Origin: Actinomyces sp.
GTDB taxonomy: Bacteria > Actinomycetota > Actinomycetes > Actinomycetales > Actinomycetaceae
Assembly (NCBI RefSeq): GCF_030524025.1
Contig: NZ_JAUNHI010000016.1
Coordinates: 14,162 to 52,445 of the forward strand
Reading direction: 5' to 3'
DNA length: 38,284 nt
Below are positions 5,878-24,537 of the stretch, piece after piece. A model generated the notes under the pieces. That model searched no databases. It saw nothing but the letters and a program-made list of their open reading frames with translations, and was not told the origin of the DNA. Position numbers and translations under genes: made by a program. How positions within the stretch are numbered: the first letter of the stretch is position 1; the number at the start of each line of letters is the position of its first letter.

Positions 5878-5980
5878 CGGGGGGGCGCCCCGGCGGCCCC
5901 CCCCGCCGCCACAACCGGGGCGGGGCCCGGGCGGGGGGCTGGGGGGGGGGGGGGGCGGCGCCCCCCGCCCCCCACGTCCA
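5878..5980. repeat. GC-extreme low-complexity tract with a run of 15 G
   Basis: Nearly pure G and C blocks, including eight C around 5897-5904, six G at 5933-5938 and fifteen G at 5941-5955, followed by C blocks. The G and C runs could fold back on each other or form quadruplex structures. There is no gene here. Such a tract may be a variable homopolymer, or a poorly resolved consensus at an assembly join. It marks the junction between the core purine/RNase block and the foreign defence genes. Confidence 0.75.
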
Positions 5981-6020: not shown

Positions 6021-6083
6021 GACGGCCTGCTTCTTGAGATGTTTGGACTTTAACACCTGAATTGTCTCAAGAAACAGGCCGTC
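6021..6083. repeat. 19-bp inverted repeat at the island edge
   Basis: Left arm GACGGCCTGCTTCTTGAGA (6021-6039) and right arm TCTCAAGAAACAGGCCGTC (6065-6083) are reverse complements with a single mismatch, enclosing a 25-nt AT-richer loop. It is too long to be chance. It is 100 bp upstream of the AAA_13 ATPase and could be an attenuator-like hairpin, a regulator site or a mobile-element relic. No T-run follows either arm, so a simple intrinsic terminator is unlikely. Confidence 0.65.
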
Positions 6084-6182: not shown

Positions 6183-8591
6183 ATGAGCCCGACACGGATC
6201 CACGCAATCAAGAAGATTGGCAACTACCGTATCTTCCAGAACTGGAGGCCGAGCGATGGCGTTGAATTCGAGCGCGTCAACCTCATATACGGCCAGAACG
6301 GCAGCGGCAAGAGCACGTTTGCCAGCCTCCTTCAGGCCTGTGCCGACTATAATAGCGACCACTCTACGGACTCTGATGGCAGTCGTGGGGAAATCGTTGG
6401 TGCGGGTCTGCAGCTCGATGTGTATGGCGGCTCCGGTTCCGTGACGTCTAGGGTATCCGAAATCAGATTGGATGATCAAGCGTTCTGGAGACGTGTGAGG
6501 GTATTCAACAGGGATTTTATCCGCAGAAATCTCCGATTCGAGGAGCCTGGTGGTCCGTATCCACAAGTTCTGCTCACTCTCGGCGAGAGGCTAGCTGATG
6601 CCGAGGAGAAGATTGAGGAGCTCGAGCCTCAGCTCAGAACTGAGCGACAAAGGCTAGGTGCGACTAAGAAGGACCTCAAAAGGGCGCAGAAGAAGATTGA
6701 TGAACTGAGCACGAAAATCGCAAGAGAGATAGGGGGCTATCTTGCCGGCTCCCCTGGCTTTAATGTGCGTAGTTATAACCGAACGAAAGTGCAGAAGCTT
6801 CTAGACAAATTTGAGGGAGATCCGACAATCCTGGCGGACGCATCAACTGACGTCTTAGCGGGCCGCAAACGTGCGACGCGCCAAGCCATGCAACCTGTCA
6901 ACATCCAGCGGCGGGACGAGTTTTTGGAGCAGGCCGGACTAGACGAGGCTCGCCAGTTGCTAACGACTAGCGTTGTGAGTAGCCGACATATCGAAGGTCT
7001 GGTGGGGCGCTCTGACCGGTCCAGGTGGGTGCAGGAGGGTATCAGTCTCCACAAGGCGCTGGAGGAGTGTCTGTTTTGCGGCCAAGGCCTGACCTCTGAC
7101 CGTCGCGATGCTCTCAATAAGCACTTCGATGAGTCATTCAAGATGCTCCAGAGTGCCGTTGATGATCTCGTGAAACGTCTGGAGGGGTCTGTGGAGGTGT
7201 CAAAGACCTTTTTGGAGGGCTTCCCTGACGGCTCCGAAGTGTATGAGGACCTGAGGGAGGACCTACGGAAGGCTCGTCAGGACTATGTTGCTGAGCATGA
7301 GTCATATGCCAGAATGGTTGGTGAGATCGTCGCGGCGTTGAAGGAGAAGAAGAACAACCCCTTCGGCGCTTCTCTGCCCATGTCAGACCTCGCGCTCGTA
7401 GCTCCGAGTGTCGCGGCACTGGACAAGGTGGTCACAGACCATCGCAACAAAATTGATCGTCATGAGGAAGAGGCTAAGAAGGCTGTTACGCGAGTCGAGC
7501 ACTACTATGTGAAAAGTGCCGCGGACGAGTATGCGAGTCTCAAGAAGGAGATAGAAGGTGCGCAGGCGGCTTGCAGCGAGTTCCAGGCCCAGGTGAAAGA
7601 GTTCGAGGAGTAGATCGCCGAGCTCAAGAACGTGGAGGGTGATCCCGTCCCCGGAGCAAGGGAACTCACTGAGGAACTCAGGGGACTTCTGGGGCGTGAT
7701 GAGCTCAGGTTCAGCGCCCAGGGTTCGAATCACTATCTCATCGAACGGGGAGGATCTCCGGCCAAACATCTCAGTGAGGGCGAGCAGACCGCGATTGCGT
7801 TGCTATATTTCCTCCACAGTGTTCGCGAGGACAAGATCGAGGGTGAGCCACCGATCGTCATTATCGACGACCCGGTCTCCAGCCTGGACCATGCCATACT
7901 CTTCGGGGCGTCAGCGCATGTGTGGGAAGAGCTTGTCGCCAATACGTACGCTAGCCAGGTCTTCCTTCTGACGCACAACTTTGAACTTTTCCGTCAGTGG
8001 CTGATCCAGATGGAGCGTGTTCCCAAGAAGTCTCGTGAAGGTGGCTATGCCGTATTTCGAGTTCGGGTGCGTCTCGACCGAAGTGCTGGTCGTGTGCCGG
8101 AGTTCGAGGCGTGGGATCTGGGTGATAAGCGGCGGAAGAAGTTGCGTTCTCAGTACCACTTTCTCTTCGATCAGGTTGCGGCCACCCTCGCTGAGTCTGA
8201 CGCCGATCCCGACTCGATCGCCCAGATGGAAGCAGCTGCGCTGGTTCCCAACACCGCCCGCAAGTTGTTGGAGGGTTTTCTGAGTTTCCGCAGTCCGTCG
8301 AATATGGGAGATTTGCGTGAATCCGTACGTGCCGCCCTTAAAAAGCGTCCAGGACTGGACGTCTCTGTGCGCACGATGGTGGTGCGTTATGCCCATGCCA
8401 ATTCTCACCTGGAGGAGGCGGACTTGACGAAGCCGCTCGATCCCAGTGAGGCAGTGTCCTTCCTCCGTGCGTTGTTCACGTTCATGGAGCATGTGGATGA
8501 GGATCACTTCAGGTCGATGTGCGAGGCCCTTGGTTATGAGCGGGGCAGGTTGTTGGGGGCGTCGTCGGTGCCGGAAGGCTCCGTCTCATGA
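6183..8591 (+). pseudogene. AAA_13/RloC-like ATPase interrupted by an in-frame TAG
   Basis: A single frame of about 800 codons is broken only by TAG at 7611-7613. Upstream lie Walker A GQNGSGKST (residues 37-45), the family-like FNRDFIRRNL, a coiled-coil middle and a CLFCGQ zinc-hook-like pair. Downstream lie the ABC-type signature HLSEGEQTAIALLYF, Walker B IVIIDDPVSSLD and the switch LLTHNFELF. The C-terminus ends with a HANSHLE motif. This is the plan of the AAA_13 family that includes the anticodon nucleases PrrC and RloC, but I cannot confirm a nuclease active site. GC is clearly lower than in neighbours, indicating transfer. Signature and Walker B lie beyond the stop, so the first half alone cannot be an active ATPase. 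Either a nonsense mutation or a base-call error. Confidence 0.75.
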
Positions 8592-8744: not shown

Positions 8745-9896
8745 ATGGGCGTTGCCCCTGTGGACGTCCAGCCCGACCTGCTGCTCTGGGCCGTGAGGCG
8801 GGCGCGCTGGGACGAGGAGACGGTCCGCCGTCGCGCGCCCAAGCTCAACGAGTGGATCGAAGGGACCTCGTGCCCGACCCTCAAGCAGTTGGAGCAGTTC
8901 GCTGCCGCCACCCACACTCCTTTCGGGATGCTCTTCCTGCCCGAGCCGCCAGTTGAGGACATCCCCATCCCAGACATGCGGACCATCCGCGACGCCGGAG
9001 TGCGCGAGCCGTCGGCTGACCTGCTGGAGACGATCTACCTGTGCCAACGGCGCCAGGACTGGTACCGCGACGACGCCCTGGACTCTGGTGCAAGCCGACT
9101 CGGCTTCGTCGGTTCCGCGAGGCTCTCGACTCCGGTGGATGATGCCGCAGAGCGCGTCCGTGACGCACTCCGGCTGGACGAGCGATCCGTGACCAGCTGG
9201 TCCGATGCCATGACAGACCTCATCAAGCGCGCCGAGGACATCGGCGTCCTGGTGATGGTCAACGGAATCGTTGGCTCCGACACCCACCGCAAGCTCGACC
9301 CCGAGGAGTTCCGGGGCTTCGCCCTGGCCGATGACATTGCTCCGCTCGTCTTCATCAATGGGGCCGACACGAAAGCGGCCCAGGTCTTCATGCTCGTCCA
9401 CGAGCTCGCTCATCTGTGGCTGGGGCACAGCGCGCTCTCCGATGCCACTGGAGTCGCAGACAGCGCGCAGCAGGAAGAGCGTTGGTGCAATGAGGTGGTG
9501 GCGGAGGTGCTCGTCCCCTTGGACTCGCTCCAGTCGGAGTGGGCGGGTAGCCTCGACGAGGAGGAACTGAACCGGCTGGCGTCCCACTACAAGGTCAGCA
9601 CTCTTGTGGTGCTCGCCAGGCTCCGGGACGCGGGGAAACTGTCGTGGGATGAGCACATGACTCGATACGCGATCGAGCGTCAACGCGTCATGGAGTTCAT
9701 GCGGTCCTCGAAAGGCGGTACTACTGGCGGAAACTACTACAACACTCAGGTCCGACGCCTCGGGCGCCCTTTCGCCCGGGCTGTGGTCTCCTCCACCCTC
9801 GAGGGGCGAACGACATACCGGGATGCCTACCGGCTGCTCGGGACAGCGAAGCACGCGACCTTCGAGGGGTTGGCGCAGAAACTCGGAGCGGCGTGA
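8745..9896 (+). CDS. XRE-type / ImmA-IrrE family metallopeptidase
   Basis: A 383-residue protein. The N-terminal 70 residues look like a degenerate helix-turn-helix (LLLWAVRRARWDEETVRRRA, then LKQLEQFAAATHTPFGML). The zinc peptidase motif HELAHLWLGHS starts near residue 219, with a downstream EERWCNEVVAEVLVP helix supplying the third ligand, as in ImmA/IrrE peptidases. Such proteins cleave or neutralise repressors and toxins in mobile elements and toxin-antitoxin loci. GAAGGAGG 4-11 nt before ATG 8745 supports the start. It ends against the remnant of a DUF4411 gene, the usual partner of this subtype, so the pair probably began as a toxin-antitoxin module. Confidence 0.9.
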   Translation: MGVAPVDVQPDLLLWAVRRARWDEETVRRRAPKLNEWIEGTSCPTLKQLEQFAAATHTPFGMLFLPEPPVEDIPIPDMRTIRDAGVREPSADLLETIYLCQRRQDWYRDDALDSGASRLGFVGSARLSTPVDDAAERVRDALRLDERSVTSWSDAMTDLIKRAEDIGVLVMVNGIVGSDTHRKLDPEEFRGFALADDIAPLVFINGADTKAAQVFMLVHELAHLWLGHSALSDATGVADSAQQEERWCNEVVAEVLVPLDSLQSEWAGSLDEEELNRLASHYKVSTLVVLARLRDAGKLSWDEHMTRYAIERQRVMEFMRSSKGGTTGGNYYNTQVRRLGRPFARAVVSSTLEGRTTYRDAYRLLGTAKHATFEGLAQKLGAA

Positions 9897-10057
9897 TAGC
9901 AGCGCACTCGTGCACGGTGGTCACCCATGAGACGGCCGGATCAGGATCCCGCAGAAACGTGAAGATCCCGGACGCGTGCAAGGCCCTTGGAGTGACGTGG
10001 GTCAACACCTTCGAGATGCTCCACCGCACCGGCGGCTCCTTCGGGCTGAGTCCGTAG
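9893..10057 (+). pseudogene. C-terminal remnant of a DUF4411 (PIN-like) protein
   Basis: From GTG 9893, overlapping the peptidase stop, a 54-residue frame reads VVTHETAGSGSRRNVKIPDA and then VTWVNTFEMLHRTGGSFGL. This matches what I know of the C-terminal end of DUF4411 proteins, PIN-like toxins normally encoded straight after an ImmA/IrrE peptidase. The usual 100 or so N-terminal residues holding the first acidic catalytic positions are missing, so an internal deletion seems to have joined the start region to the end. It was recognised by pattern, not by a search. Confidence 0.6.
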
Positions 10058-10207: not shown

Positions 10208-13200
10208 ATGACGATCTCTCCCTCGACGACTTGTGACCGCGGCTCCTCTCCGTCATCCACCCTGCCTGCACCGCCGGACCACGGTCAGGTCGTTCAGGTC
10301 CGTGGAGCCGCCTGGGCGGTCACAGATGTCGCTGTTCAGGGGCTTCCCCGCAGCCCGGCTGACGACGGCCAGCCCCGTCGCGAGCATGTTGTCGACCTCC
10401 AGTGCCTTGAGGAGGACCGTATGGGTGACGAGCTCACGGTGATCTGGGAGCTGGAAGTCGGGCAGTCGGTGGTCCCGGACCGTGGCCTGCCCGAGGAGAT
10501 CTCGGCGGAGACCTTCGACGACCCCGACACCCTAGGGGCTTTTGTTGACGCCGTGCGCTGGGGCGCCATCACCTCCGCCGATTCCTCAGCTTTTCAGGCG
10601 CCCTTCCGCTCGGGCGCCACCCTGGAGCCCTACCAGCTTGAGCCCCTGCGCCGGGCACTCGCGGCCCCGCGCACCAACCTCCTGCTGGCCGACGACGTCG
10701 GCCTGGGCAAGACCATCGAGGCTGGCCTGGTCATCGAGGAGCTGCTGCTGCGCCACCGTGCCCGCTCGGTCATCATCGTGTGCCCGCCGAGCCTGGCCCT
10801 AAAGTGGCGCGACGAGATGCGGGAGAAGTTCGGCCTCGACTTCGTCATCGTCGACTCGGCCCGCATGGCCGCCGATCGGCGCACCTACGGGCTGGCAGCC
10901 AACCCGCTGCGCCTCCACCCGCGTGTCATCGTCTCCATGGCATGGCTGCCTGGCGCGCACGCCCAACGACTCTTGCGGGAGGTGCTCGCCGACGCCGCCC
11001 GCTCCGACACGGCCCGCTCCTACGCCTTTGATGTGCTTGTTGTCGACGAGGCGCACCACGTGGCCCCCGCAGCGCCCTCCGCGGTAGGCGGCGGGCGCGG
11101 GTATGCCGTGGACTCCCAGCGCACGACGGCGCTGCGTCGCCTGGCAGAGAGCTGCGAGCACCGCCTCTTCTTGTCCGCCACACCCCACAACGGCTACACC
11201 GAGTCCTTCTCTGCCCTGCTCGAGATGATCGACTCGCGGCGCTTCGCCCGCGGCGCCTCCATTGACCCCAACGCCCTCAACGAGGTCACCGTGCGGCGGC
11301 TCAAGTCGCAGATCCCGGACAAGGATTTCCGCCCCCGCCAGGTCAAAGTGCTCCCATACCAGGCCTCACAGGATGAGGAGAAGGCCTACGCGACCTTGGA
11401 CGAGATCCTACGCGCCTCCGGCCGCTCCCAGGGGCGCCGCCACCTCGACATCGCCGCCCTTCTGCTCAAGAAACGTTTCCTGTCCAGCCCCTGGGCCTTT
11501 GCGCGAACCTTGGACAACTACCTCGCTCAGCCGGCCTTCGGCGGGTTCGAGGAGCTCGACGACGTCGACGACTACTACACCGAGGTCATGGGCTCGGGTC
11601 AGGCTGACGAGGAGGAGGGCCTGGACGCCCAGCCGGAAATGGGCACGCTTCTGGCTACCCGCGCCTCGGACCCGCTGTCGGCTGCCACACGCGAGCAGCT
11701 GACTGAGCTGTCCGAGTGGGCGCACGGGTACCAGTCCCGGCCTGACTCCCGCCTGGCGGCCCTCGTGCGCTTCCTCGACGCCGTCTGCCGCCCCCGACGG
11801 GACGACGTGGATGAACGAGAGGGTTGTCGTCTTCACCGAGTACGCCGACACCCTCGACTGGATCGTCTCGGTGCTGCGCCAGCAGGGCTACGAGGACCGC
11901 CTGGAGGTCATCCGGGGCTCGACGCCCGCGGAGGACCGTGAGGACATCCGGGCGCGCTTCACCGCCAGCCCCACCGAGGAGCCGGTCCGTGTCCTGGTGG
12001 CCACGGACGCCGCCGGGGAGGGAATCGACCTCCAGGCCTACTGCCACCGCCTCGTCAACTTCGATGTCCCCTTCAACCCCTCCCGCCTCGAGCAGCGGGT
12101 GGGGCGGATCGACCGCTACGGCCAGCGCGAGGTCCCCGAGGTCTACTACCTTGCCCCGACGGGCACGAACAGCCTGTACGCCGGGCAACAGCATTTTCTG
12201 GAGCGGCTCGCAGCCAAGATCGCCACCGAGACCCAGGACCTGGGTGCCGTCAACCCGCTTATCGATGAGCAGATCACTACGCAGTTCCTGGGGCGCGGCC
12301 TACGCAAGACCGCCGCCCAGGGGCGGGACGAGCAGGCCATCACGCAGGCTTTAGCCGGCTCGGACAAACTCAAACAGCAGTTGACGGCGCTCGCCGCAGG
12401 CTATAACGAGCGCAAGGAGCAGATGCACCTGACCCCCTCCGCGAGCCGGCGGGTGATCGATGAGGCACTGCGTATGACGCACCAGCCTCCGCTGGAGGAG
12501 GTCGGCAGCGAGGAGACGGACGCCGCAGTCTTCGACGTACCTTCTCTGGGCCGCTCCTGGCAGGAGGCCCTCGCGGGTCTCGACACGCGCCTGGCGCCGG
12601 GGCGCCTGCGGCCGATCACCTTCGACGAGGAGGCTGGGCGCGTGCCCGGTCTCGTTCACGTCCACCTGGGCCACCCGCTCATGCGCAAGGCGACCCGCAC
12701 GTTGCGGGCCAACCTGTTCAGCCCCCAGTCGCAGGTCAGCCGGGTGACGGCCGTCATGCTGCCGGGGCTGGAGCACTCCTGTGCCGCCTCCCTGTCCCGG
12801 CTCGTGCTCGTTGGCCGCGGGGGCCTGCGCCTGCACGAGGAGGTTTTCGTGACCGGGGTGCGGTTGCGCGGGCACCGCGTGGCCGAGGAGACGCTCGCCC
12901 GCGTGCTGGATCGTGCCCTTGACCCCAACGGCTACCAGCTGGCGGAGCCGGCGGTCCGGCGCCACCTCACCGGTCTGTGGAACGACGACGGGCACCTGCG
13001 CACCCGCCTTGTCGAGGAGACCGAGCGACGGGCGCAGCGCCTCCAGGACCGGGTGACCGCGAGCCTTGACCGGCGGCGTGAGGAGGACACGGGACGCGTC
13101 CACGCCATCTATGCGGCCTTCCGCGCCAACCTCACTGACTCATTGGAGCGTCTGCACGCCGAGGAGCGGGAGTCCCAGGACATGCTCGCCTTGTGGGCCG

Positions 13201-13391
13201 AGGACCAGCGCCAGCAGCGCGCCCGGGACCTGCGGGCCATGGAGGACCGCCTGGTGGCCCTGGACGACGAGGAGCAACGGGAGGTCAAGGCGATGGCATT
13301 GCGCTATGAGGATGTGCGGCCCTACGTCTCGCCCGTAGCCCTCGTCCTGGCGGTCACCGAGGAGGACGCGACCTCGTGGGGGAGGCGGTGA
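10208..13391 (+). pseudogene. drmD: DISARM class 1 SNF2-family helicase DrmD, one frameshift
   Basis: SF2/SNF2 ATPase of the DISARM anti-phage system, about 1060 residues if the frame is restored. Motifs in order: Walker A LLLADDVGLGKTIEAGLV (about residue 158), DEAH box VVDEAHHVAP (278), LFLSATPHNG (322), then in the next frame VVVFTEYADTLDW, LVATDAAGEGIDLQAY and EQRVGRIDRYGQ (about 631). The break is at five C (11791-11795); removing one C gives a continuous AVCRPDGTTWMNERVVVF. Without correction the first frame ends at 11941 and lacks helicase lobe 2. The N-terminal part (GQVVQVRGAAWAVTDV) precedes the ATPase and supports the early start. The stop shares one base with the drmMI ATG. Confidence 0.88.
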
Positions 13392-16300
13392 TGAGCCCGA
13401 GGAAGGCATCAGGCGCACGGGCGGCAGGAAGCCGGGCCGGTCGGTCCTCAGCATCCGGCAGGGCCGCCCGCACCGCCGCCCAGCAGCACCGCGCCTGGCT
13501 GGAGCTGGTCGACGTCGACGGGCCCTTCCTGTCCGTCCCAGTCATGACCAGGCTGCACCCGCAGGGAATGCCGTCACTCGGGGCGGCTGGCCGTGAGGCC
13601 CTCCGTGCCGCCAAGCCTGCCTTCGACCGCGCCTGGGATGCCTGGGACCGCGACCGGGACAGCAACGGTGACCGCAACAGTGACCGTGCCCTGGATGCCT
13701 ACCGCCGGGCGCGTGACACCTGGGTGCTCACGGTCCTCACCGCGGTCTTCGGCTGGGGCAGGGACTATGTGAGCGCACAGGACCGACCGGCACTGGCTGA
13801 GGTGCACCGGGTGGTCTCTGACGGTTTCCCGCAGGTGACGGTGACACCGACCGGCGCACTTGTCCACCGGCAGACCACCGGTGCGCTTGTGCTGGTCACC
13901 GACCCGGTGGACTCACTGCGTGGTGCGGGGCAGGACGGCTGGGCGGCGAGCCCGGTCGACCGGATGGCTGCGATGCTGCGCAGCCGCGACTCGGAGTGCA
14001 CGATCGGCCTTGTCACCGACGGCCGCTGGTGGGCGCTTGTCAGCGCACCGCCGGGCGGGACGACGGCCTGCGGCATCGTGGACTGCCTGACCTGGGTGGA
14101 GGAGCCCGCGACCCGGGATGCCTTCTGCGAGCTCCTCGGCCTGCGCCGGCTTCTGGGCGGGACGAGTGAGGACCGGCTGCCTGCACTGTTCCAGCGATCC
14201 GTCCTGGCGGCCGAGGAAGTGACCGAGGCGCTTGGCGCCCAGGTGCGCCGGGCGGTTGAGCTGGTCGTCATGGCGCTGTCCGAGGCCGCCCTCGACTCTC
14301 AGCCGGATCCGGCCCTGGGCGACCCGCTGCCCGAGGACACCCACGAGGTGTATGAGGCGGTGGTCACGGTCATGATGCGCGCTGTCTTCCTGCTGTTCGC
14401 TGAGGAGCGGGGCCTTCTGCCCGCTCACACTCTCTACACCGGTGGCTACGGCCTGGTCGGCGTCCTTGATGACCTCGAGGCGCGCGCACGGGACGAGGGT
14501 GAGGAGTCGATGGATGGCACGAGCCTGACCTGGCACCGGCTGCTGGCCACCTCCCGCGCCCTGCACGAGGGCGTCAACAATGAGAACATGCGGATCCCCG
14601 CCTACGGCGGCTCGCTTTTCGATCCCGCCCGCTTCCCTGTCCTCACGGCGGTGGACGCGAGGGGCTCCCTGCGCCTGGCGGTCTCGGACCGGGTCATGCT
14701 GCATGTGCTGCGCTCCCTCCAGACGGCCCGCACCGGCCAGGGGCAGGATGTCCGCCGCCTGTCCTTCCGGGACATCGACGTCGAGCAGATCGGTTATATC
14801 TACGAAGGCCTGCTGGGCTACACGTGCGTACGCACCTCGGAGACGGTGCTGGGGCTCCATGGCACCGAGGGTGCGGAGCCGGAGGTGTCCTTGGCTCTCC
14901 TGGAGGACCTGGCTGAGGAGCACGATGACGACGTCGATCTGGCGCAGGCGGTGCTCGCCTGGCTCAGGGAGCACCAGAGCGCGGCGAAACCGCCTACCAA
15001 GGGTGCCTTGGCAAAAGCCTTCCGCTCTGGGGACATGATGGACCCGGCCGAGCGTGAGCGTGCCCTGCGGGCCGTCACCAAGGACGACTCTCTCCGGGAG
15101 GCGCTGAAACCGTGGATCGGTGCCGTCCGGTGGGACCTGCGCGGCCGGCCGGTGGTGATCGAGTCCGGTGGCCTTGTCGTGACTGAGACCCCGTCGCGGC
15201 GCAACGCCGGCGCCCATTACACGCCCCGTTCACTGGCCGAGGAGGTGGTGCGCCATGCCCTGGAACCGCTGGTCTACAACCCGGGGCCGCGCGAGACAGA
15301 CGACCGCACTGCCTGGCGGCCGCTCAGCTCGGATGCGATCCTCGGCCTGCACGTGGCTGATATCGCCTGCGGCTCGGGAGCCTTCCTCGTGGCGGCAGCC
15401 CGTTTTCTCGCCGACCATCTCGTCGAGGCATGGACCCGTGAGGGGGCGCTCGGGGGCTACGCCGGCCAGCCTGGCGGGTTGCGCAGCCACGCCCTGCGGC
15501 AGGTGGTGGCCCGCTGCCTTTACGGGGTGGATATCAACGAGATGGCCGTCGAGATGTGCAAACTATCCCTGTGGCTTGTCTCGCTCGACAAGGACAAGCC
15601 CTTCAGTTTTGTCGACAACAAGATCTTTGTGGGCAACTCCCTGCTGGGGCTGAGCGACGTGCGCCAGCTGCGCGCCCAGCACATTGACCCTGCCGCAGCA
15701 CCCGAGAAACGGCTCTTTGAACTCGACCGCACAGGCAAGGAGGCCGCAGCCCTGGACATCGACGCAGTCCTTAGCAAGGTGCGGCGCCGCCGCCTCGCGC
15801 TGGCCACCGAGGTGGACGACACTGACCCGGCGCGCTCGACGACGACGAAGCAGCGGCTCCAGCGGGGCAATGAGGCGGACCTGCGGCTCCTCGAAGGTGT
15901 GGCCGATGCCGTCGTGGCCGTGGGCCTGGACCCGGCGGTCGGCGCCAAGCCAGGTAAGAAGCTCAATGAGGCCTACGGGGACCTGGCGGTGGCCCTCGGC
16001 CGGGCCTTCCCACCCGAGGGGGAGGGAGACGAGGCCATGCTGGAGGCGATCCTCAACCGCGGCCTCACTCCGACGGTGGAGACGGACTACGAGCGCTGGC
16101 ACTGCCTGCACTGGCCCCTGGCTGTCCCCGAGGTGATGGAGTGCGGCGGCTTCGATGCCATTGTGGGGAACCCGCCCTTCCTGGGTGGGCAGAAACTCAC
16201 CGGGTCACAGGGAGCGAATGTGCGTGACTGGTTTGTGCACGTCCTTGCTGGAGGAACGAAGGGGAGCGCTGATCTTGTTGCCTACTTCTTCCTCCGCGCT

Positions 16301-17621
16301 TTCAGCCTGCTGCGGCCAACTGGGATGCTGGGGCTGATCGCGACGAACACCCTGGCCCAGGGTGGCGCCCGCAAGGTGGGGCTCGACCGCATAACGGCGA
16401 ATGGTTTTGAAATCACCCGAGCCATTCGATCAAGACCCTGGTCTCACAGGAGGTCTCACCGACCAAGAGTGAAAAGATCTGGGGATCAGCCGCACCTCGA
16501 GTATGCGGTTGTGTGGGGGTCTCGAGGCTATGTCGCCGACGAGGTACCGCGCGTGTGTGACGACACCCCCGTCGCCCGCATCAGCGCACTCCTCGAACCA
16601 GAGGGGAGCGTGACCGGAAATCCAAAGCGGCTCGTCGAGAACGCCGGCATCGCCTTCCAGGGCTGCATTGTGCTTGGTACAGGCTTCATCCTCGACCCCG
16701 AGGAGGCGAGAAGCTGGATCGAGCAAGACCCGCGCAATGTCGAAGTGCTCTTCCCTTATCTGAACGGCAAGGACCTCAACTCTAGACCCGACTGCTCGCC
16801 GTCGCGATGGGTCATTGACTTCGGTATGCGTTCGCGAGATGATGCTGGGTCATATTTCGCCCCTTTCTGGCGAGTGAAACAGTATGTTAAGCCACAGCGC
16901 GACCTCGTCAAAATCGATTATCGCCGCGAATACTGGTGGCGTTTTGCGGCATGGGCGCCGTCGATGCGGCGGGCGATTGCTGAGCTCGACGAGGTCCTGG
17001 TAATTGCTCGTGTGAGCAAAACGGTCATGCCTGTGCGTGTTCCTGCTGGGCAGGTGTGATGACAAAATTGTCGTATTTTCCTCGGATCGTTACAGCATGC
17101 AAGCCATGCTTTCGTCCAGCCTTCATCAAAGTTGGACTATTAAGTATGGGACTACTCGCACTGGCGATCCAACATATACTCCGAAGACTGTTTTCGAGAC
17201 CTTCCCGCGACCGGAGCCCACCGTCGATATGGAAGCAATAGGCCGCACTTTGGATGTGGAGCGCCGGGAGATCATGCTGCGCCGAGACCTCGGCCTCACC
17301 AAGCTCTACAACCTTGTCAATGACCCGGGCCTCGAGTCTGGCGTGGATCCGGATGTCGACCGGCTGCGGGAGATCCACCGCGAGCTCGACGAGACCCTGG
17401 CCGCCGCCTACGGCTGGGAGGACATTGACCTCGACCATGGCGTCCACACCTACCGGAAGATGACCCGCTGGACCATCTCCCCGGCCGCCCGCGTCGAGAT
17501 CCTCGACCGACTGCTCGAGGAGAACCACCGCCGTGCCGCCGCCCAGGCGGCCACCACCACAGCACAGCCACGTGGGAAGCGCGGCCCCCGACCGGTCCAA
17601 GAGGAGACCCTCGATGTCTAA
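13391..17621 (+). pseudogene. drmMI: DISARM class 1 N6-adenine methyltransferase DrmMI, one frameshift
   Basis: Large type I/IIG-like adenine methylase of DISARM, about 1409 residues when restored, expected to mark host DNA. SAM motif I is ADIACGSGAFLVAAARFL (about residue 655) and catalytic motif IV is VGNPPFLGG (about 926). Start ATG 13391 is preceded by GGGGGAGG at good spacing. The first frame stops at 17057-17059 after VPAGQV; the reading resumes one frame over with DDKIVVFSSDRYSMQAMLSS and runs to TAA 17619-17621. The C-terminal part (LSSSLHQSWTIKYG, FETFPRP) belongs to the specificity region, so the shift would remove it. Base composition around 16.4-17.25 kb is more AT-rich than the rest of the gene. 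It overlaps drmA by 8 nt. Confidence 0.86.
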
Positions 17622-20600
17622 GACCACGCCCCCCGCCAGCCCGGGCGCCCCCGGCACCACGCCCCACGACGGCACGGCCTACCTCTTTGAGGAGGAGCCC
17701 GGCCCCACCTCGGTGTCCGCTCGCGCCGGCCTCCTTGATGTTCTGCGTCGCGAGCTCCTTGGCCCCGCCGAGGGCGACACCGAGGTTCTCGCCGTCCAGC
17801 CCAGCCAGCGCTACCTCCTCGGGCGCATTGCCCCCACCCGCCTCCAGGACCTCCGGGAGGAGACAGGGGCCGAGATGATGGCGGACGAGGAGGGCGTCGA
17901 TCCTCTCGACGCCCTGGCCTCTACCGGCGTCCCCGTCACCGGCACGGAAACGGAGACCATGGACGCCTCCGCCGAGGAGGACCTCGGTGGGGACACCGAC
18001 GACGAGCCCGTCCGCCGCGGCCTCATGATTCCCGCCTCGATGGGCCTGCGCTTCCAGGTCCCCACCGACTTCGAGGCGCTCACCATCCACGTCAGCTGGG
18101 GCACTTATGAGCCCGTGAGCAGCCCCACTGACACAGGTGGCGACAGCGGCGTTTCCCAGGACCCCGGCTCGTCCTCCGGACCCCAGTACCGGCGTGTCCC
18201 CCACGACCACAGCCTCCGCCTGGAACCCGCCACCCTCAAACTTGGCCGCACCGTAGACTGCATCCTCGACGGAGACGTCACCCTCCGCATCGACTCCTAC
18301 CTCGATGAGCCCGCGGGCCGGTACCTCATTGAGCTCGCTCTGTGCAACGACCGGACCACCCCCAGGCGCATTCCCACCGAGGCCTGGATGTTCCAGACCC
18401 GTATCGATGTTGACGCGGGCGGCCGTGCCGTCTTCCTCCCCGTCCACGACCCCACCCACCCACCCGCCCCAGGCGCTGCGGCGAGACACGACCCCGGCAG
18501 CGAGGAGGCCCGCCTTGACCTCCAGTACCGCGACCGGCTCGAGTTCGCCGTCGGCCGCACCTGCTCGGCCGACTGGAGCCTGTCGCCCACCCTCCCCGGA
18601 GAGGACCCGCCCCGCCGCGCCGTCCAGGTCCGCACCACCTGGATCCCCACCGTCGAGACGCCCCACACCCGCGCGGCGGAGGTCCCCGACGCCCTCCTCG
18701 ACATGCGCGCCCTGGCCACCGCGGCAACCACCCCGAAGGGCTCCGGGGCGCTGCGGGCCGCCCTCGCACCCATCGTCAGTGCCTACCGCATCTGGCTGGA
18801 CGAGCAAGGCGTGGCTGCCGCAGCCCTCCCTGAGCACCTGCGGGACACCGCCGAGGAGGCCCTCGCCGAGGCCCACCAGGTCCTGGACCAACTGGCTGAG
18901 GGGCTCGCCCACCTCACCGCCGACACCCCGGACGGGGCGGAGGCACGCCGCTGCTTCGCGTTCATGAACAGGGTCATGGCCGACCAACGCATCCACTCCC
19001 AGATCGCCGCGGCCCGGATGGCTGAACCTGCCCTCAGCGTTGAGAAGGCCGAGGAGAAAGTCCTGGCAGGTGGCTACCCCCACCACTGGCGTGTTTTCCA
19101 GCTCGTCTTCATCCTCATGCAGCTGCCAGGCCTCGCTGACCCGGCAGCCGAGCGACGCGCTGGCCCTCTGGCCACCGTCGAGCTTCTCTTCTTCCCCACC
19201 GGTGGAGGAAAAACCGAGGCCTACCTTGGGCTGGCCGCCTACGCCTTCGCCATCCGCCGCCGGCAAGGCCTCCTGGACACCCCGGACGGGCCCATCGACG
19301 GGCGTGCCGGCGTCACCGTCCTCATGCGCTACACCCTGCGCCTGCTCACCTCCCAACAGTTCCAGCGCGCCACGACCCTCGTGTGCGCTGCCGAGCTCGC
19401 CCGCCGCGAGGACCCGGAGACCTGGGGAACTGAGCCCTTCCGCATCGGCCTGTGGGTCGGCACGGCCGTCTCCCCCAAACGCGTGAGGGAGGCCGACGAG
19501 GCGCTCCAACGCCTGCGCGACCGGCCCGGCGGCGGCGCCGGCCACCGCTTCTCCGCCCTCCAGCTCGGCCACTGCCCCTGGTGCGGACTGCCTCTGACCC
19601 CCAACGACGTGACCGTGGGGGACGTTGCCGGGATGGCTGAGCGCGTCGTCGTGCGCTGCCCTGACCCCTACGGCGAGTGCCCCTTCTCCGCTGGCGACGA
19701 CAACGTCCCCGACGGGCTGCCGGTCCTGACCACCGACGAGGAGATCTACCGGCTCGTACCCGCTTTTGTCATCGCCACCGTCGACAAGCTCGCCCGGCTC
19801 GCCCGCGAGGGCCACGCTGCCACCCTCTTCGGGCACGTCGCCCGCCACTGTGGGCATCACGGCTACGTCCCCGGACTCGACCACCGCGGTCGCTCGGACT
19901 ACACCGGCTGCACCCTGGCCGACAACGGGCGCCACCATGCCAAGGGAAACCTGCCCGCCGCCACTGTCCGCCCCGCCACGAGGCTCCGACCGCCGGACCT
20001 CATCATCCAAGACGAGCTCCACCTCATCACCGGCGCGCTGGGTACCACGGTCGGCCTGTTCGAAACCGCCGTCGACGCCATGTGCGCCTGGAAGGCGCCC
20101 GATGGCCGCCCCGCAGCGCCGCTGATCGTCGCCTCCTCGGCCACCGTCCGCAAGGCCGCCGACCAGGTCCGACTCCTCTACGGCCGCGATGTCACCATCT
20201 TCCCGCCCCAGGTCCTCGACGCCTCCGACACCTTCTTCTCCCGATCAGTCCCCATCGACCGCACGCACCCGGGGCGCCTCTACGTGGGCCTGTCCACCAC
20301 CGGGGTGCGACTGACCAACGCCGAGATCCAGGTCACGCAGGTCCTCATGGCTGGCGCCCAGCTCCTCCTGGACCGTGTCGGCGCGCCGGCCGACCCCTAC
20401 ATGACCCTCGTCGGCTACTTCTCAGCCACCCGTGAGCTGGCCGGCATGGCCCGCTACATCCAGGACGACATTCAGACGGGCCTGGCCAGGCCGGGCCGCG
20501 ACTCCCGCCTGCCGCGCCGCCGAGGCACGGACTTCGGTGCCCTGCACCTGGGTGAGCTGACCTCCCGGGTCTCCTCCGCGGACATCACCACGACCCTCGA

Positions 20601-21513
20601 CCGCATGGCCCTCACCTTCGACCCCGACATCGACTCCACCGCCGCCAAGGACGCGGCGGCGGCTGCGACCCGCTCCGGGACGAACGTTGATCGGCGGCAG
20701 GCATCCGCCAACCCCTATGACGTCGTCCTGGCGACCTCCATGCTCCAGGTCGGGGTCGACGTCTCCCGGCTCGGCCTCATGCTCGTTGTCGGCCAGCCCA
20801 AGAACACCGCCGAGTACATCCAGGCCACCTCCCGGGTTGGCCGTGACATGGCCAACCGCCCTGGGCTCGTCGTCACGCTCGGCAACTGGTCGCGACCCCG
20901 GGACCTCGCGCACTACGAGCAGTTCTGCCACTTCCACGAGACCTTCTACGCACGCGTCGAGCCGCTGTCGGTCACGCCCTTCTCCATCACGGCCGTCGAC
21001 CGCGGCCTCGACGGGACCCTCGTCGCCGCATCTCGCGTCATCCAGGCCAGCACCCCCAACGGCCTCAACCCCGAGCACAACGCCGGCAAGGTCCTCACGC
21101 AAGACGCCGCCCTCAAGGCACTGTCCAGCGCACTGATTGAGCGCATCACCGCGGCCGGCGGTGAGGACGCAGCCCGGTACGCGGAGCAGCGGCTCGAGGC
21201 TCGACGGAGCGAGTGGAAGCGCCGGAAGGATAAGGTCACCAGTCGGGGTGGCGGGCTCGTCTACGAGCGCGGCGCCGACGACGAACGTTTCTTCGCCCTC
21301 CTGCGCTCGGCCGAGTCCAGCGGTGGTCACGCGCCCCGGGGAGACGAGGCGCCGTTCGTCGTCGCCGGTTCCATGCGGGAGGTCCAGCCCGAGATCAATC
21401 TGCTCGTCTCACCCGACCCCACCCGCCTCATCGACCGCGCCATGGAGGCCGCCCCACCGTGGCAGCGCCAGGAGCCGGGAGACACCGACGAGACCGAGCA
21501 GGAGAAGCGATGA
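17614..21513 (+). CDS. drmA: DISARM helicase-domain protein DrmA
   Basis: A 1299-residue intact superfamily 2 helicase-like protein, a core DISARM subunit that acts with DrmB on incoming phage DNA. Walker A is FFPTGGGKTEAYLGLA (about residue 527), the motif II variant is IIQDELHLITG (about 796), motif III is ASSATVRKAA, and motif VI is IQATSRVGRDM (about 1070). A small zinc site is suggested by CPWCGLPL (about 653) and CPDPYGECPF (682). ATG 17614 is chosen because it carries GAGGAG upstream and overlaps the drmMI end; the open frame extends further up but lacks support. The stop overlaps the drmB start by 4 nt. Confidence 0.93.
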   Translation: MSKTTPPASPGAPGTTPHDGTAYLFEEEPGPTSVSARAGLLDVLRRELLGPAEGDTEVLAVQPSQRYLLGRIAPTRLQDLREETGAEMMADEEGVDPLDALASTGVPVTGTETETMDASAEEDLGGDTDDEPVRRGLMIPASMGLRFQVPTDFEALTIHVSWGTYEPVSSPTDTGGDSGVSQDPGSSSGPQYRRVPHDHSLRLEPATLKLGRTVDCILDGDVTLRIDSYLDEPAGRYLIELALCNDRTTPRRIPTEAWMFQTRIDVDAGGRAVFLPVHDPTHPPAPGAAARHDPGSEEARLDLQYRDRLEFAVGRTCSADWSLSPTLPGEDPPRRAVQVRTTWIPTVETPHTRAAEVPDALLDMRALATAATTPKGSGALRAALAPIVSAYRIWLDEQGVAAAALPEHLRDTAEEALAEAHQVLDQLAEGLAHLTADTPDGAEARRCFAFMNRVMADQRIHSQIAAARMAEPALSVEKAEEKVLAGGYPHHWRVFQLVFILMQLPGLADPAAERRAGPLATVELLFFPTGGGKTEAYLGLAAYAFAIRRRQGLLDTPDGPIDGRAGVTVLMRYTLRLLTSQQFQRATTLVCAAELARREDPETWGTEPFRIGLWVGTAVSPKRVREADEALQRLRDRPGGGAGHRFSALQLGHCPWCGLPLTPNDVTVGDVAGMAERVVVRCPDPYGECPFSAGDDNVPDGLPVLTTDEEIYRLVPAFVIATVDKLARLAREGHAATLFGHVARHCGHHGYVPGLDHRGRSDYTGCTLADNGRHHAKGNLPAATVRPATRLRPPDLIIQDELHLITGALGTTVGLFETAVDAMCAWKAPDGRPAAPLIVASSATVRKAADQVRLLYGRDVTIFPPQVLDASDTFFSRSVPIDRTHPGRLYVGLSTTGVRLTNAEIQVTQVLMAGAQLLLDRVGAPADPYMTLVGYFSATRELAGMARYIQDDIQTGLARPGRDSRLPRRRGTDFGALHLGELTSRVSSADITTTLDRMALTFDPDIDSTAAKDAAAAATRSGTNVDRRQASANPYDVVLATSMLQVGVDVSRLGLMLVVGQPKNTAEYIQATSRVGRDMANRPGLVVTLGNWSRPRDLAHYEQFCHFHETFYARVEPLSVTPFSITAVDRGLDGTLVAASRVIQASTPNGLNPEHNAGKVLTQDAALKALSSALIERITAAGGEDAARYAEQRLEARRSEWKRRKDKVTSRGGGLVYERGADDERFFALLRSAESSGGHAPRGDEAPFVVAGSMREVQPEINLLVSPDPTRLIDRAMEAAPPWQRQEPGDTDETEQEKR

Positions 21514-23648
21514 GTCAGGACATCACTGCGCCGACGGGAACCGGCGCCGCTGAACCCGAGGACGAGCTCGCCGTCGTCGACCCTCTGGGCGACGGTGAAC
21601 GCCTCACCGCCGAGCAGGCCAAGAAGAACTACGCGAAGGTCGGCTCCGCGCGGCCGACGACGCTGCTGTACACCTACGGGCCGGGCGCTGTCATCGACCT
21701 CCCGCACTTCACCATCATGCCCGCCGGCCTGGACGACTGGGAGCACATCTGGCGGCGCCGGTCATCCGACCCCATTCCTGTCCATGCCCCGCGCCTGTTG
21801 GAAACCGTTCAGCTCATGCTCGGCCACCAGGTTGCTGAGCTACGGCCCTTCCCCTGGCAGCCCACCCGGCCGGGGCGCCACCGGGAGGGGGACGACCTGG
21901 GTGTGCCGGCGCGGGTCTTCCCCCAGTGGCTTCGCTGCACCGGCTGCGACCTGCTCGCCCCGCTGAGGCGTTTCGTCAGGGGCTACTCCAACACCCACCC
22001 CTACCGCCCCGACCAGGCTGTTTTCGAGCACCTCGAGTGCCCCGGGCGCCATCAGCGGCGAGGCGGCTCGCGCTCCGCAAGTCCGGCGAGCAGGAGACGG
22101 GGGCGGCGTTGCTCCCCCTGCGTGCCCGCGCGCTACTTGCTGGCCTGCCCTCTGGGCCATCTCGACGAGTTCCCCTACGACTGGTGGGTCCACGACGGGG
22201 CGCATTGCACCAAGGCCGAGAACCCCGAGCTCGAGATGCGAGACACCTCCCAGCGCGGTGCCACCGCCATCATTGTCTGCCGGGCCTGCCAGAGCCGGCG
22301 ACCCATGGCTCAGGCCCAGGGCGAGGAGGGGCGCCGTCGGCTCCCTCGCTGCCGCGGCCGCCATCCCCACCTTGGCGTCTTCGACCCTCAGGGGTGCCAG
22401 GCCGAGCCGAGAGTCATGCTGATCGGCGCCTCCAACCTCTGGTTCGCCACCACCCAGTCCATCATCGACATGCCTCGACTGGATGATGCCGAGGTCAGGC
22501 GGGACGAGGTGGCGGCGCTGAGTAGAGCACTGGGCGAGGACCGCGCAGAGGTGGGGCAGGACGTGAGGATGGCCCGCCTGCTTCTCAAGCGTGGCGACGC
22601 CGAAGCCATACGGCTCTCCAAGCTCAGCAATACCAAGCTGGGCGAGTTGTTGCGCCAGCTCGCGGCTCCGGTCGAGAGTGAGGAGGACCGCCTGCGCCGT
22701 CGCGAGGACTGGAACCCGGTGGACCTCCTCGTGCCCGAGTGGAACTACCTCCAGAACGACCCGCCAGGTGACCACCATGAGGAATCCGCCAGCGGCCTCG
22801 TTGTCTCGCCTCGTCAGCTCGGTGCGGTGCCCGACGAGATCAAGCGGGTCCTCGCCGTCGACCGGCTGCGCAAGGTCAACGCTGTCCTCGGCTTCACCCG
22901 CATCGACGACTTCGACCGCATTGATGACTCAGGCGCCCGGCTCGTGCCCCTGGCACGAGGCGGCAGGCCCACGTGGGTGCCTGCGACCGTGGACCATGGC
23001 GAGGGGATCTACCTCCAGCTCGACGAGAATGAGGTGTCCACCTGGGAGAAGCGGGTGCTCGACAGCACGCTGTGGGAGGCGCACCGGGCTGCTCACAGGC
23101 GCAACGTCGAACGCCGGTACTCCGAGACGGCCAAGGTGATCGATCCCGATGAGCGTTTCGTCCCGCCACGCTACTGGCTCGTCCACACCCTCGCCCACGC
23201 ACTCATTCGTGAGATGGCCATGTCCTCGGGCTATGGTGCCGCCTCCATCTCTGAGCGCATCTATGCCTGGACCAAGACCCCGTCCCGTCCGCCAGCCGCG
23301 GGCATGCTGCTGACGACGACCGCGTCGGACTCAGACGGGACGCTCGGCGGGCTCGTGTCTTTGTCTCAACCTGACCGCCTCGCAGACGTGGTCGACGCCG
23401 CTCTTACAGGCATGATGCGCTGCTCCTCTGATCCGGTGTGTGCCCGGCGGGTGCCACAGGACCCCGAGGACTTTCTCCACGGCGCAGCCTGCCACTGTTG
23501 CACGATGGCCTCGGAGACCTCCTGTGAACGGGCGAACCGCTTCCTTGACCGCCGCTTCGTTGTCCCACTGCCTGGGGAGTGTACGGTCGACAGCAACACA
23601 TTCCCATCGGCCGGTCTCGCGTTCTTCAGCGGCGTGCGGACCTCCTGA
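21510..23648 (+). CDS. drmB: DISARM DUF1998-domain protein DrmB
   Basis: A 712-residue protein that partners DrmA as the conserved core of DISARM. Several cysteine pairs suggest zinc binding: LRCTGCDLL, PCVPARYLLACPLGHLDEFP and IVCRACQS. The DUF1998 domain is C-terminal, with HTLAHALIREMAMSSGYGAA, MLLTTTASDSDGTLGGL, CSSDPVCARR and a cysteine cluster HGAACHCCTMASETSCERAN. The ATGA overlap with drmA fixes the start at 21510. An Arg/Ser-rich stretch around residues 185-205 (near 22.06-22.12 kb) looks like a variable linker. No frame disruption is seen. Confidence 0.92.
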   Translation: MSQDITAPTGTGAAEPEDELAVVDPLGDGERLTAEQAKKNYAKVGSARPTTLLYTYGPGAVIDLPHFTIMPAGLDDWEHIWRRRSSDPIPVHAPRLLETVQLMLGHQVAELRPFPWQPTRPGRHREGDDLGVPARVFPQWLRCTGCDLLAPLRRFVRGYSNTHPYRPDQAVFEHLECPGRHQRRGGSRSASPASRRRGRRCSPCVPARYLLACPLGHLDEFPYDWWVHDGAHCTKAENPELEMRDTSQRGATAIIVCRACQSRRPMAQAQGEEGRRRLPRCRGRHPHLGVFDPQGCQAEPRVMLIGASNLWFATTQSIIDMPRLDDAEVRRDEVAALSRALGEDRAEVGQDVRMARLLLKRGDAEAIRLSKLSNTKLGELLRQLAAPVESEEDRLRRREDWNPVDLLVPEWNYLQNDPPGDHHEESASGLVVSPRQLGAVPDEIKRVLAVDRLRKVNAVLGFTRIDDFDRIDDSGARLVPLARGGRPTWVPATVDHGEGIYLQLDENEVSTWEKRVLDSTLWEAHRAAHRRNVERRYSETAKVIDPDERFVPPRYWLVHTLAHALIREMAMSSGYGAASISERIYAWTKTPSRPPAAGMLLTTTASDSDGTLGGLVSLSQPDRLADVVDAALTGMMRCSSDPVCARRVPQDPEDFLHGAACHCCTMASETSCERANRFLDRRFVVPLPGECTVDSNTFPSAGLAFFSGVRTS

Positions 23649-23664
23649 GCAACAGTGGTGGGAG

Positions 23665-24537
23665 ATGACGCGCAGTACGGAAGAGTCACTACGGGCGCTT
23701 GGTGCATTCCTTACCGGCACGGAGGCTGAAGGAATTGGCGCGCGGCTGGCAGCCGGTGCCACCCTGAGCCAGGCGCTGTCCGTGGTACCTGCCGCCCGTC
23801 GGGCCCAAGCCCGGCGGCTTATGGCGGATGCCGGGCTTGGGCCACCGACGAGGGAGAAAAGCGTTGCCTTACTCACCGCTGTTGCTGGCGCAGCGAGCCG
23901 AATGAGGAGCATCTCGCCCGTGTGGACCGCGCCCCCGGGGCTCCTCGGTGGGGGCGCCCTGACGGGCGACGTCTTCGCCATGGTCAAAGGAGCCGCCACC
24001 TCCGTTGTCTGCGCCACCTACAACCTCCAACCGACCTCGGTGCTATGGAAGGCGATGGTGTTCCTGGCGCAGGAGCGGCCAGGGGTGGCGGTGCGTCTGT
24101 ACGTCGACACGCAGGCTGCTGACGGGAGGTTCGCGGGTGCTGGCAGATCCCGGCGGACGCCAGGGCTCCGGCCTGGGGCCCGAGGAGGACGGCAGGCCGG
24201 GGGTCGGGGCGGGCGGCAGGCTGGTGGTATGGGCGCTGGGGTGGCGGCGTCGCGAGGCTCGGCACTCAGCACCGGAGACATGGCTCGTGGCCTTACTGGG
24301 GCGGTTGTCATGCGGACCCGCGCACCCCGGCAGGGTGAGCGACCGGTGACGAGTCACGCGAAGTTCCTCAGCGTCGACCACCGATACCTGCTGGTGGGCA
24401 GCGCCAACTTTTCCCGCAGCGCCGAGGAGCGCAACGTCGAGCTCGGTCTGCGCGTGGACGACCCTGCCCTGGCGGCCAGCGTCGAGAAGCAGATGCGGGA
24501 CCTCGAGGCCAACGTGTATGAGCGGGTGATGCCTTGA
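23665..24537 (+). CDS. drmC: DISARM phospholipase D-like protein DrmC
   Basis: A 290-residue PLD-superfamily protein. The C-terminal half has one HKD motif, HAKFLSVDHRYLLVGSANFS, followed by SAEERNVELGLRVDDPALA, as in DrmC of DISARM; DrmC appears accessory in characterised systems. The region between VRLYVDTQAADGR and LSTGDMARGLTGAVVMRTR is a Gly/Arg/Gln-rich low-complexity stretch containing two copies of GGRQAGG, probably an expanded linker. ATG 23665 lies 16 nt after the drmB stop; the GTGGGAG just before it is close for a ribosome site. It is the last gene of the DISARM run. Confidence 0.88.
   Translation: MTRSTEESLRALGAFLTGTEAEGIGARLAAGATLSQALSVVPAARRAQARRLMADAGLGPPTREKSVALLTAVAGAASRMRSISPVWTAPPGLLGGGALTGDVFAMVKGAATSVVCATYNLQPTSVLWKAMVFLAQERPGVAVRLYVDTQAADGRFAGAGRSRRTPGLRPGARGGRQAGGRGGRQAGGMGAGVAASRGSALSTGDMARGLTGAVVMRTRAPRQGERPVTSHAKFLSVDHRYLLVGSANFSRSAEERNVELGLRVDDPALAASVEKQMRDLEANVYERVMP

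Follow-up and report, generated by a model that had tools for sequence, protein, structure and literature searches.

A frame-broken class 1 DISARM operon in Actinomyces and a probable on/off switch in the drmD gene of its relatives

We analyzed a stretch of 38,284 nucleotides from an Actinomyces sp. genome (assembly GCF_030524025.1, contig NZ_JAUNHI010000016.1; the whole stretch is called the window here, and positions are counted from its first letter) and found that positions 10208-24537 of the forward (+) strand are a class 1 DISARM phage defense operon in an Actinomyces-type genome, in which the helicase gene drmD and the methylase gene drmMI are each split by a change of reading frame. 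Comparison with other loci of the genus, most of which carry a long G run inside drmD, suggests that drmD is probably a slipped-strand on/off switch of class 1 DISARM in these relatives, the breaks of the window copy looking instead like ordinary decay or assembly error.

The DISARM operon and its frame breaks

The gene order drmD-drmMI-drmA-drmB-drmC is the defining feature of class 1 DISARM, and the window has a drmA/drmB core, drmD and drmMI upstream of it, and drmC, in the order D-MI-A-B-C on one strand. PADLOC profiles name all five genes with matches far beyond chance, and the Pfam domains fit; NCBIfam profiles name drmD, drmA, drmB, and drmC and give only weak BREX methylase matches, far below the cut-off, for drmMI. 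The 5' part of drmD (10208-11941, +) encodes lobe 1 of an SNF2-like helicase with the motifs GLGKT, DEAH, and SAT and matches PDLC02621 over positions 8-523 of 1040 (8.2e-207), and the 3' part (11811-13391, +) encodes lobe 2 and the C-terminal region, matching positions 521-1038 of the same 1040 (6.2e-157). Another PADLOC profile, PDLC02572, is labelled DrmA, matches the window drmD (4.2e-150), and may be mislabelled. The main part of drmMI (13391-17059, +), an adenine methylase with an NPPF motif and Eco57I and N6_Mtase domains, matches PDLC02643 over positions 3-1155 of 1347 (E=0) and is followed in a different frame by the C-terminal part (17037-17621, +). Open reading frames encode the DISARM helicase DrmA (17614-21513, +; NF038325, 1287 bits against a cut-off of 950), DrmB with its MZB domain (21510-23648, +; NF038324, 648 bits against 240), and the PLD-like protein DrmC (23665-24537, +), which matches PDLC02609 (8.3e-88) and PLDc_2 and exceeds the NF038319 cut-off only marginally (133.4 bits against 133).

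A preliminary description of this DNA, made from the sequence alone, had called a five-gene class 1 DISARM locus here, and its family call, gene order, strand, and extent all agree with the profile searches. The helicases and the methylase match DISARM profiles best rather than those of another system, and the DUF1998 similarity expected of DrmB is present, both in the DrmB family match and in MZB, which we take to be the current Pfam name of DUF1998. The overlapping junctions described from drmD to drmB were likewise found: the likely drmMI start, an ATG at 13391 directly preceded by purine-rich sequence, overlaps the TGA of drmD; the likely drmA start, ATG 17614, overlaps the drmMI stop ending at 17621; and the likely drmB start, ATG 21510, overlaps the drmA stop (ATGA). 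The ATG of drmC, at 23665, lies 16 nucleotides past the drmB stop. The count of five holds for gene families but not for open genes, since drmD and drmMI are each frame-broken.

The two parts of drmD are open reading frames (ORFs) one base apart in frame, with the frame change at 11780-11811 (+), and drmMI consists of the ORFs 13376-17059 and 17037-17621, with the break near 17056. Both junctions are read in a single frame in every fetched relative that spans them; for drmMI, tblastn places both parts in the frame of the main part. A working class 1 DISARM would have all five reading frames open; with drmD and drmMI broken, the operon as assembled in the window probably does not function. A poly-G tract as the cause of these breaks was considered and rejected, as no homopolymer run of 7 or more lies within 10208-24537. 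Since the window drmD has no long G run, its breaks look like decay by ordinary mutation or assembly error, not like a phase-OFF state.

Further hints come from the ratio of nonsynonymous to synonymous substitution rates (dN/dS). In what follows, related genomes carry G numbers (the window genome is G000) and the loci taken from them L numbers. The 5' and 3' halves of the window drmD have similar dN/dS, 0.168 and 0.174 against L014 and 0.206 and 0.208 against L013, and therefore the breaks would be recent or not real. In the latter case they would be sequencing or assembly errors in an operon that is intact in the strain, a reading that concerns the window only and is compatible with a switch in the relatives. 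The likeness of the two halves agrees with it, and so does the state of the assembly, a 2.68-Mb draft of 55 contigs with N gaps in which the window lies on a 52-kb contig. However, two frame breaks, a one-codon stop, and a truncated neighbor cluster within about 10 kb, and the drmMI junction has no adjacent run longer than four. Moreover, among 18 non-overlapping ORFs shared by G000 and the relative G027, the two broken in G000 are drmD and drmMI, and none of the other 16 is, which is weak evidence given a small sample (the sampled G000 pieces overlap 800 kb of G027 poorly) that includes other genes of the DISARM locus. On balance, we find assembly error unlikely, if still worth bearing in mind.

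A further way to reconcile the drmD break with function would be programmed ribosomal frameshifting that yields one DrmD protein, or two chains split between the helicase lobes, and the ATG of the second ORF, at 11811, does sit at the start of lobe 2. Yet no fetched relative is split there, and breaks elsewhere fall at different positions. A programmed frameshift at this junction was rejected, because the reading frame continues unchanged across it in the fetched relatives that include it, and the idea as a whole appears very improbable.

Poly-G tracts in drmD of related loci

We found drmA in 10 of 49 genomes of the genus, the window genome included, and compared nine genus loci of about 20 kb together with eleven named loci, of which three come from genomes that the genus set also contains. 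The genus includes A. johnsonii and A. succiniciruminis, as genus loci share DNA with those named records. A family search gave 12 of 213 genomes above the DrmD cut-off, and an order search gave 23 of 396 genomes with DrmAS, from which 20 regions were taken (leaving out G433 and the second drmA match of G424), 12 of them with a class 1 drmD. L161 lacks drmD at a contig end, L168-L170 have remote drmD-like matches only, and L171-L174 have no drmD. One genome per species was compared, and loci of the same DNA were counted once (L016/L024, L018/L025, L020/L026, L029/L158, L033/G607). Searches of plasmid records and viral contigs gave no close relatives or strain variants: 27 plasmid records have drmD, all below 60% identity, and the viral contigs gave no relative.

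Inside drmD, seven of the ten genus loci (the window counted) carry a run of G7 to G12, with the gene in frame in four and out of frame in three. The runs are G12 in G027, G10 in G007, G016, G038, and G024, G9 in G025, and G7 in G041. Across the nine genus regions (177 kb) only eight homopolymers of at least 7 occur, seven of them in drmD, and none was seen in drmMI, drmA, or drmB of these nine loci. Four of the ten genus copies of drmD are broken (window, G027, G038, and G025), and three of these breaks are located at long G runs. Among 21 distinct class 1 loci outside the genus, two of them partly covered, drmD is broken in two, L033 of Bifidobacterium leontopitheci and L034 of [Pseudopropionibacterium] massiliense. 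All seven genus tract carriers have an open methylase gene, drmMI; it is broken in the window and L027, and an insertion interrupts it in L034. For drmA and drmB, none of the loci compared showed a frame break in the parts covered; a TGA reported in the drmA match of G038 was set aside, as it lies upstream of the open frame of the gene.

Aligned, the drmD runs fall at three sites, each an insertion beside tract-free relatives, and carriers of a given site fall together in the drmD tree. Site A is open in G007 and closed in G038, site B is open in G016 (G10) and closed in G027 (G12), and site C is open in G024 (G10) and G041 (G7) and closed in G025 (G9). At sites B and C the open and closed states thus follow run length as a frame switch predicts, and at site C the two open copies, with 98.9% protein identity between G041 and G024, differ in run length by three Gs. 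A fourth site lies in another family, where the open drmD of G486 (L167) holds a G10 run, the sole homopolymer of at least 7 in 16.8 kb. G486 belongs to the genus of B. leontopitheci, because G607 has the same DNA as L033, and G486 and G607 are the only two of 112 genomes of that genus in which a class 1 drmD was found; the B. leontopitheci drmD itself is broken at an A7 run. The tract sites lie in weakly conserved stretches, as read from a consensus that holds L167 and only one genus tract carrier.

Runs elsewhere in these operons were noted in passing. A C9 run in the open drmMI of B. leontopitheci (L033:14820) and a G8 run in the open drmMI of G410 (L157:6684) mark possible methylase switches.

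The concentration of runs in drmD can be put in numbers, although the P values are descriptive because drmD was singled out after the data had been seen. With drmD making up 17% of the 177 kb, the binomial probability of seven of eight runs falling there is 2.7e-5, counted per run. Runs of G9 or longer were also counted genome-wide in ten genomes, and the six with complete lists were used (G000, G027, G038, and G041 were left out). They hold 35 (G007), 11 (G016), 8 (G024), 3 (G025), 6 (G012), and 2 (G014) distinct tracts, from which 0.075 drmD tracts would be expected; drmD tracts were observed in four of the genomes at three sites, with a Poisson probability of 6.7e-5 for three events. Synonymous shuffling of the open drmD copies, done for seven loci, gave P values of 0.0095, 0.019, 0.0385, and 0.0105 for the four open G10 copies, and in the three neighboring genes of the shuffled loci the longest run never exceeded 6.

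The drmD tracts also stand apart in their position, as seven of eight have coding-like flanks on both sides (L167 being the miss), whereas by that rule 3 of 44 other tracts do, in a check that included 22 of the 34 non-drmD tracts of G007. Those three are in L179, L182, and L183, and the one in L183 reads as a spacer between two genes. In L182 (G024), a G11 run (L182:1468-1478) closely follows the Walker A motif in the gene for a large helicase-methylase that matches a PADLOC type IIG profile (2.1e-192), and the frames differ across the run. Because this tract clearly breaks the helicase-methylase, a second defense enzyme of the genus seems to share the same design, and the gene is a candidate for a second phase-variable defense gene.

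The closed copies were also compared by dN/dS. By the NG86 method, dN/dS downstream of the tract is 0.146 in L016 against L014 and 0.167 in L021 against L019, and that of L013 against L014 is 0.132; for comparison, open-open drmD pairs give 0.13 (two pairs) and drmA gives 0.17-0.27 (eight pairs). Closed drmD copies thus look conserved and not visibly drifting.

We weighed a switch against plain decay, in which DISARM is costly, drmD is often the first gene lost, and the G runs are slippage hot spots with no selection for switching. Decay does occur around these operons. Breaks with no long tract are found in drmD and drmMI of the window, in drmMI of L027, and in L034, whose drmD frame break is accompanied by an insertion of about 1.1 kb in drmMI (L034:14766-15899); in G010, which stands outside the counts, a 5' drmD remnant runs into drmC and the part of the operon between them is missing (L097:3956-5981); and two neighbors of the window operon, the AAA_13 and DUF4411 genes, are broken too. 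Decay would also suit the closed site A copy, whose run is as long as that of the open copy. However, four of the seven tract carriers are open, the open lengths at site C differ by three, dN/dS stays low downstream of the tract in closed copies, and tracts arose at three genus sites in the same gene while none was seen in drmMI, drmA, or drmB of the nine genus loci. Plain decay is therefore an unlikely account.

Several observations nevertheless weigh against a drmD switch. Three of the ten genus loci (the window, G012, and G014) have no tract, and no drmD run of G or C of at least 7 was seen in 19 of the 21 non-genus class 1 loci, among which L155 and L159 were partly covered. No long tract lies at the drmD breaks of the window and L034, and with no run of 7 or more in the window drmD a switch leaves the window's own breaks unexplained. 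The two site A carriers share a G10 run, with a small change next to it in the closed copy, and this pair is thus not explained by run length alone; and because the drmA tree separates (support 0.997) the pair that the drmD tree groups, recombination or a separate origin is possible there. With each site counted once against the single run outside drmD, the enrichment in drmD falls to only P 0.017, and two of the genomes not used in the genome-wide count, G000 (242) and G038 (134), are rich in G9 windows. Synonymous shuffling shows nothing unusual in the G7 copy (L020; P 0.22), and the downstream dN/dS of L013 is somewhat raised against L015, at 0.294 with a dS of only 0.143.

Taking both sides together, we consider a slipped-strand switch in drmD of the relatives, with the breaks of the window copy due to ordinary mutation or assembly error, the likely explanation. 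A long simple repeat inside a coding region, the mark of a contingency locus, is present in seven of the ten genus loci and lacking from drmD and drmMI of the window. With similar confidence, we suggest that class 1 DISARM in Actinomyces is such a locus, in which drmD became a switch on three or more occasions in the genus and again in Bifidobacterium, always within a weakly conserved helicase linker, so that attack would be turned off with the genes for the methylase and the DrmAB core intact. Slippage in the G run would move DrmD in or out of frame, and out of frame the defense would be off. The methylase gene stays open and drmMI may be made in both states, so cells in the off state would still mark their own DNA but lose attack, and a return to the on state would leave no unmarked self DNA exposed. 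Because drmMI stays open, a cell could lose and regain attack with its self-marking kept.

Neighboring genes and genomic setting

The operon shares its island with other genes of a defense type, and the defense-island setting put forward in the preliminary description holds. Upstream lies an AAA_13 ATPase gene (6183-8591, +), the PADLOC candidate PDC-S06, which matches PF13166 over positions 1-435 and 455-703 of 713 in two ORFs of the same frame. The AAA_13 identity given earlier was right, but an in-frame TAG at 7611-7613, unnoticed before, interrupts the gene. In the G/C-rich intergenic stretch upstream of it, G7, C8, and G15 runs lie at 5879-5955 and may be an artefact of assembly or mark a variable promoter, and an inverted repeat with 19-base arms and one mismatch, terminator-like by eye, lies at 6021-6083. 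Between this gene and drmD come a long ORF for an ImmA/IrrE-type peptidase (Peptidase_M78; 8745-9896, +; PF06114, 4.2e-14) and a relic (9902-10057, +) that is presumably DUF4411, a name taken from the earlier description rather than from a profile match. As that description said, the pair is a relic: the translation of 9902-10057, set against the longer frames of L015, L017, and L034, keeps only the C-terminus, and the M78 ORF is long. Four other loci, L013 (where it is broken), L015, L017, and L034, likewise have the M78 peptidase gene upstream of drmD, and the long DUF4411 frame is retained at the same place in the last three, so the pair may travel with DISARM.

The setting between purF and nrdD, also described earlier, is true of the window genome, but the interval is not conserved in the genus. 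Both genes lie within about 37 kb on one contig only in G015 and G048; in other relatives they are at least 170 kb apart or on different contigs. In-frame stops in the nrdD matches of G003, G004, G010, G012, G027, G037, and G038 may be genuine breaks or may come from query sequence that overhangs the gene upstream. Thirteen proteins from the window flanks, AAA_13 included and two of them from doubtful ORFs, had no match in 22 related loci, whose flanks reach only a few kb past DISARM.

Comparison with known systems

In the available parts of a structural study, DISARM is described as a methylase, DrmA, DrmB, and the PLD protein DrmC with auxiliary genes, and a DrmAB complex is proposed to sense methylation status (PMC9142583). 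The published model is that DISARM marks self DNA by methylation and that the DrmAB helicase complex acts on unmarked incoming DNA. The same study, in its available parts, does not yet place DrmD and calls for work on it and on how it interacts with DrmAB (PMC9142583), and the role of DrmD is the question on which a switch bears. If drmD was repeatedly chosen as the switch, then DrmD is probably needed for attack, and an always-on DISARM is probably costly. Genome surveys would then miscount the system, as closed copies would pass for pseudogenes though the lineage may still use it, and open drmD copies may be off in many cells.

Compared with class 1 DISARM as known, the window has the same five gene families in the same order; it differs in that its drmD and drmMI are frame-broken and that the drmD genes of its relatives carry poly-G tracts, a feature undescribed for DISARM in the literature found. 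Literature searches of open-licence papers, PMC12003011 and PMC10687267 among them in their available parts, gave no report of phase-variable DISARM among the matches listed. Phase-variable restriction genes are well known (PMC12003011 and PMC12707154, available parts). The poly-G/C phase-variable restriction-modification genes of Helicobacter pylori have, like drmD, a tract in the coding region that opens or closes the frame by its length (PMC12003011, available parts), but they belong to another defense system; of the tracts examined here, only those of drmD and L182 are clearly intragenic. In Gardnerella, many homopolymers are variable and those of G/C lie mostly upstream of genes (PMC11287997, available parts).

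The pglX tract of Streptomyces coelicolor is a poly-G tract. In the available parts of a study of Streptomyces Pgl, a type 2 BREX system, pglX shows phase variation and is frequently disrupted, and Pgl of S. coelicolor thus resembles the DISARM loci in being a phage defense switched at one gene in an actinobacterium (PMC9122589). The switched gene of Pgl is the methyltransferase PglX, whereas in the DISARM relatives it would be the helicase gene drmD, with the methylase open in the seven genus carriers. The drmD design would thus be the reverse of Pgl, where the methylase is switched.

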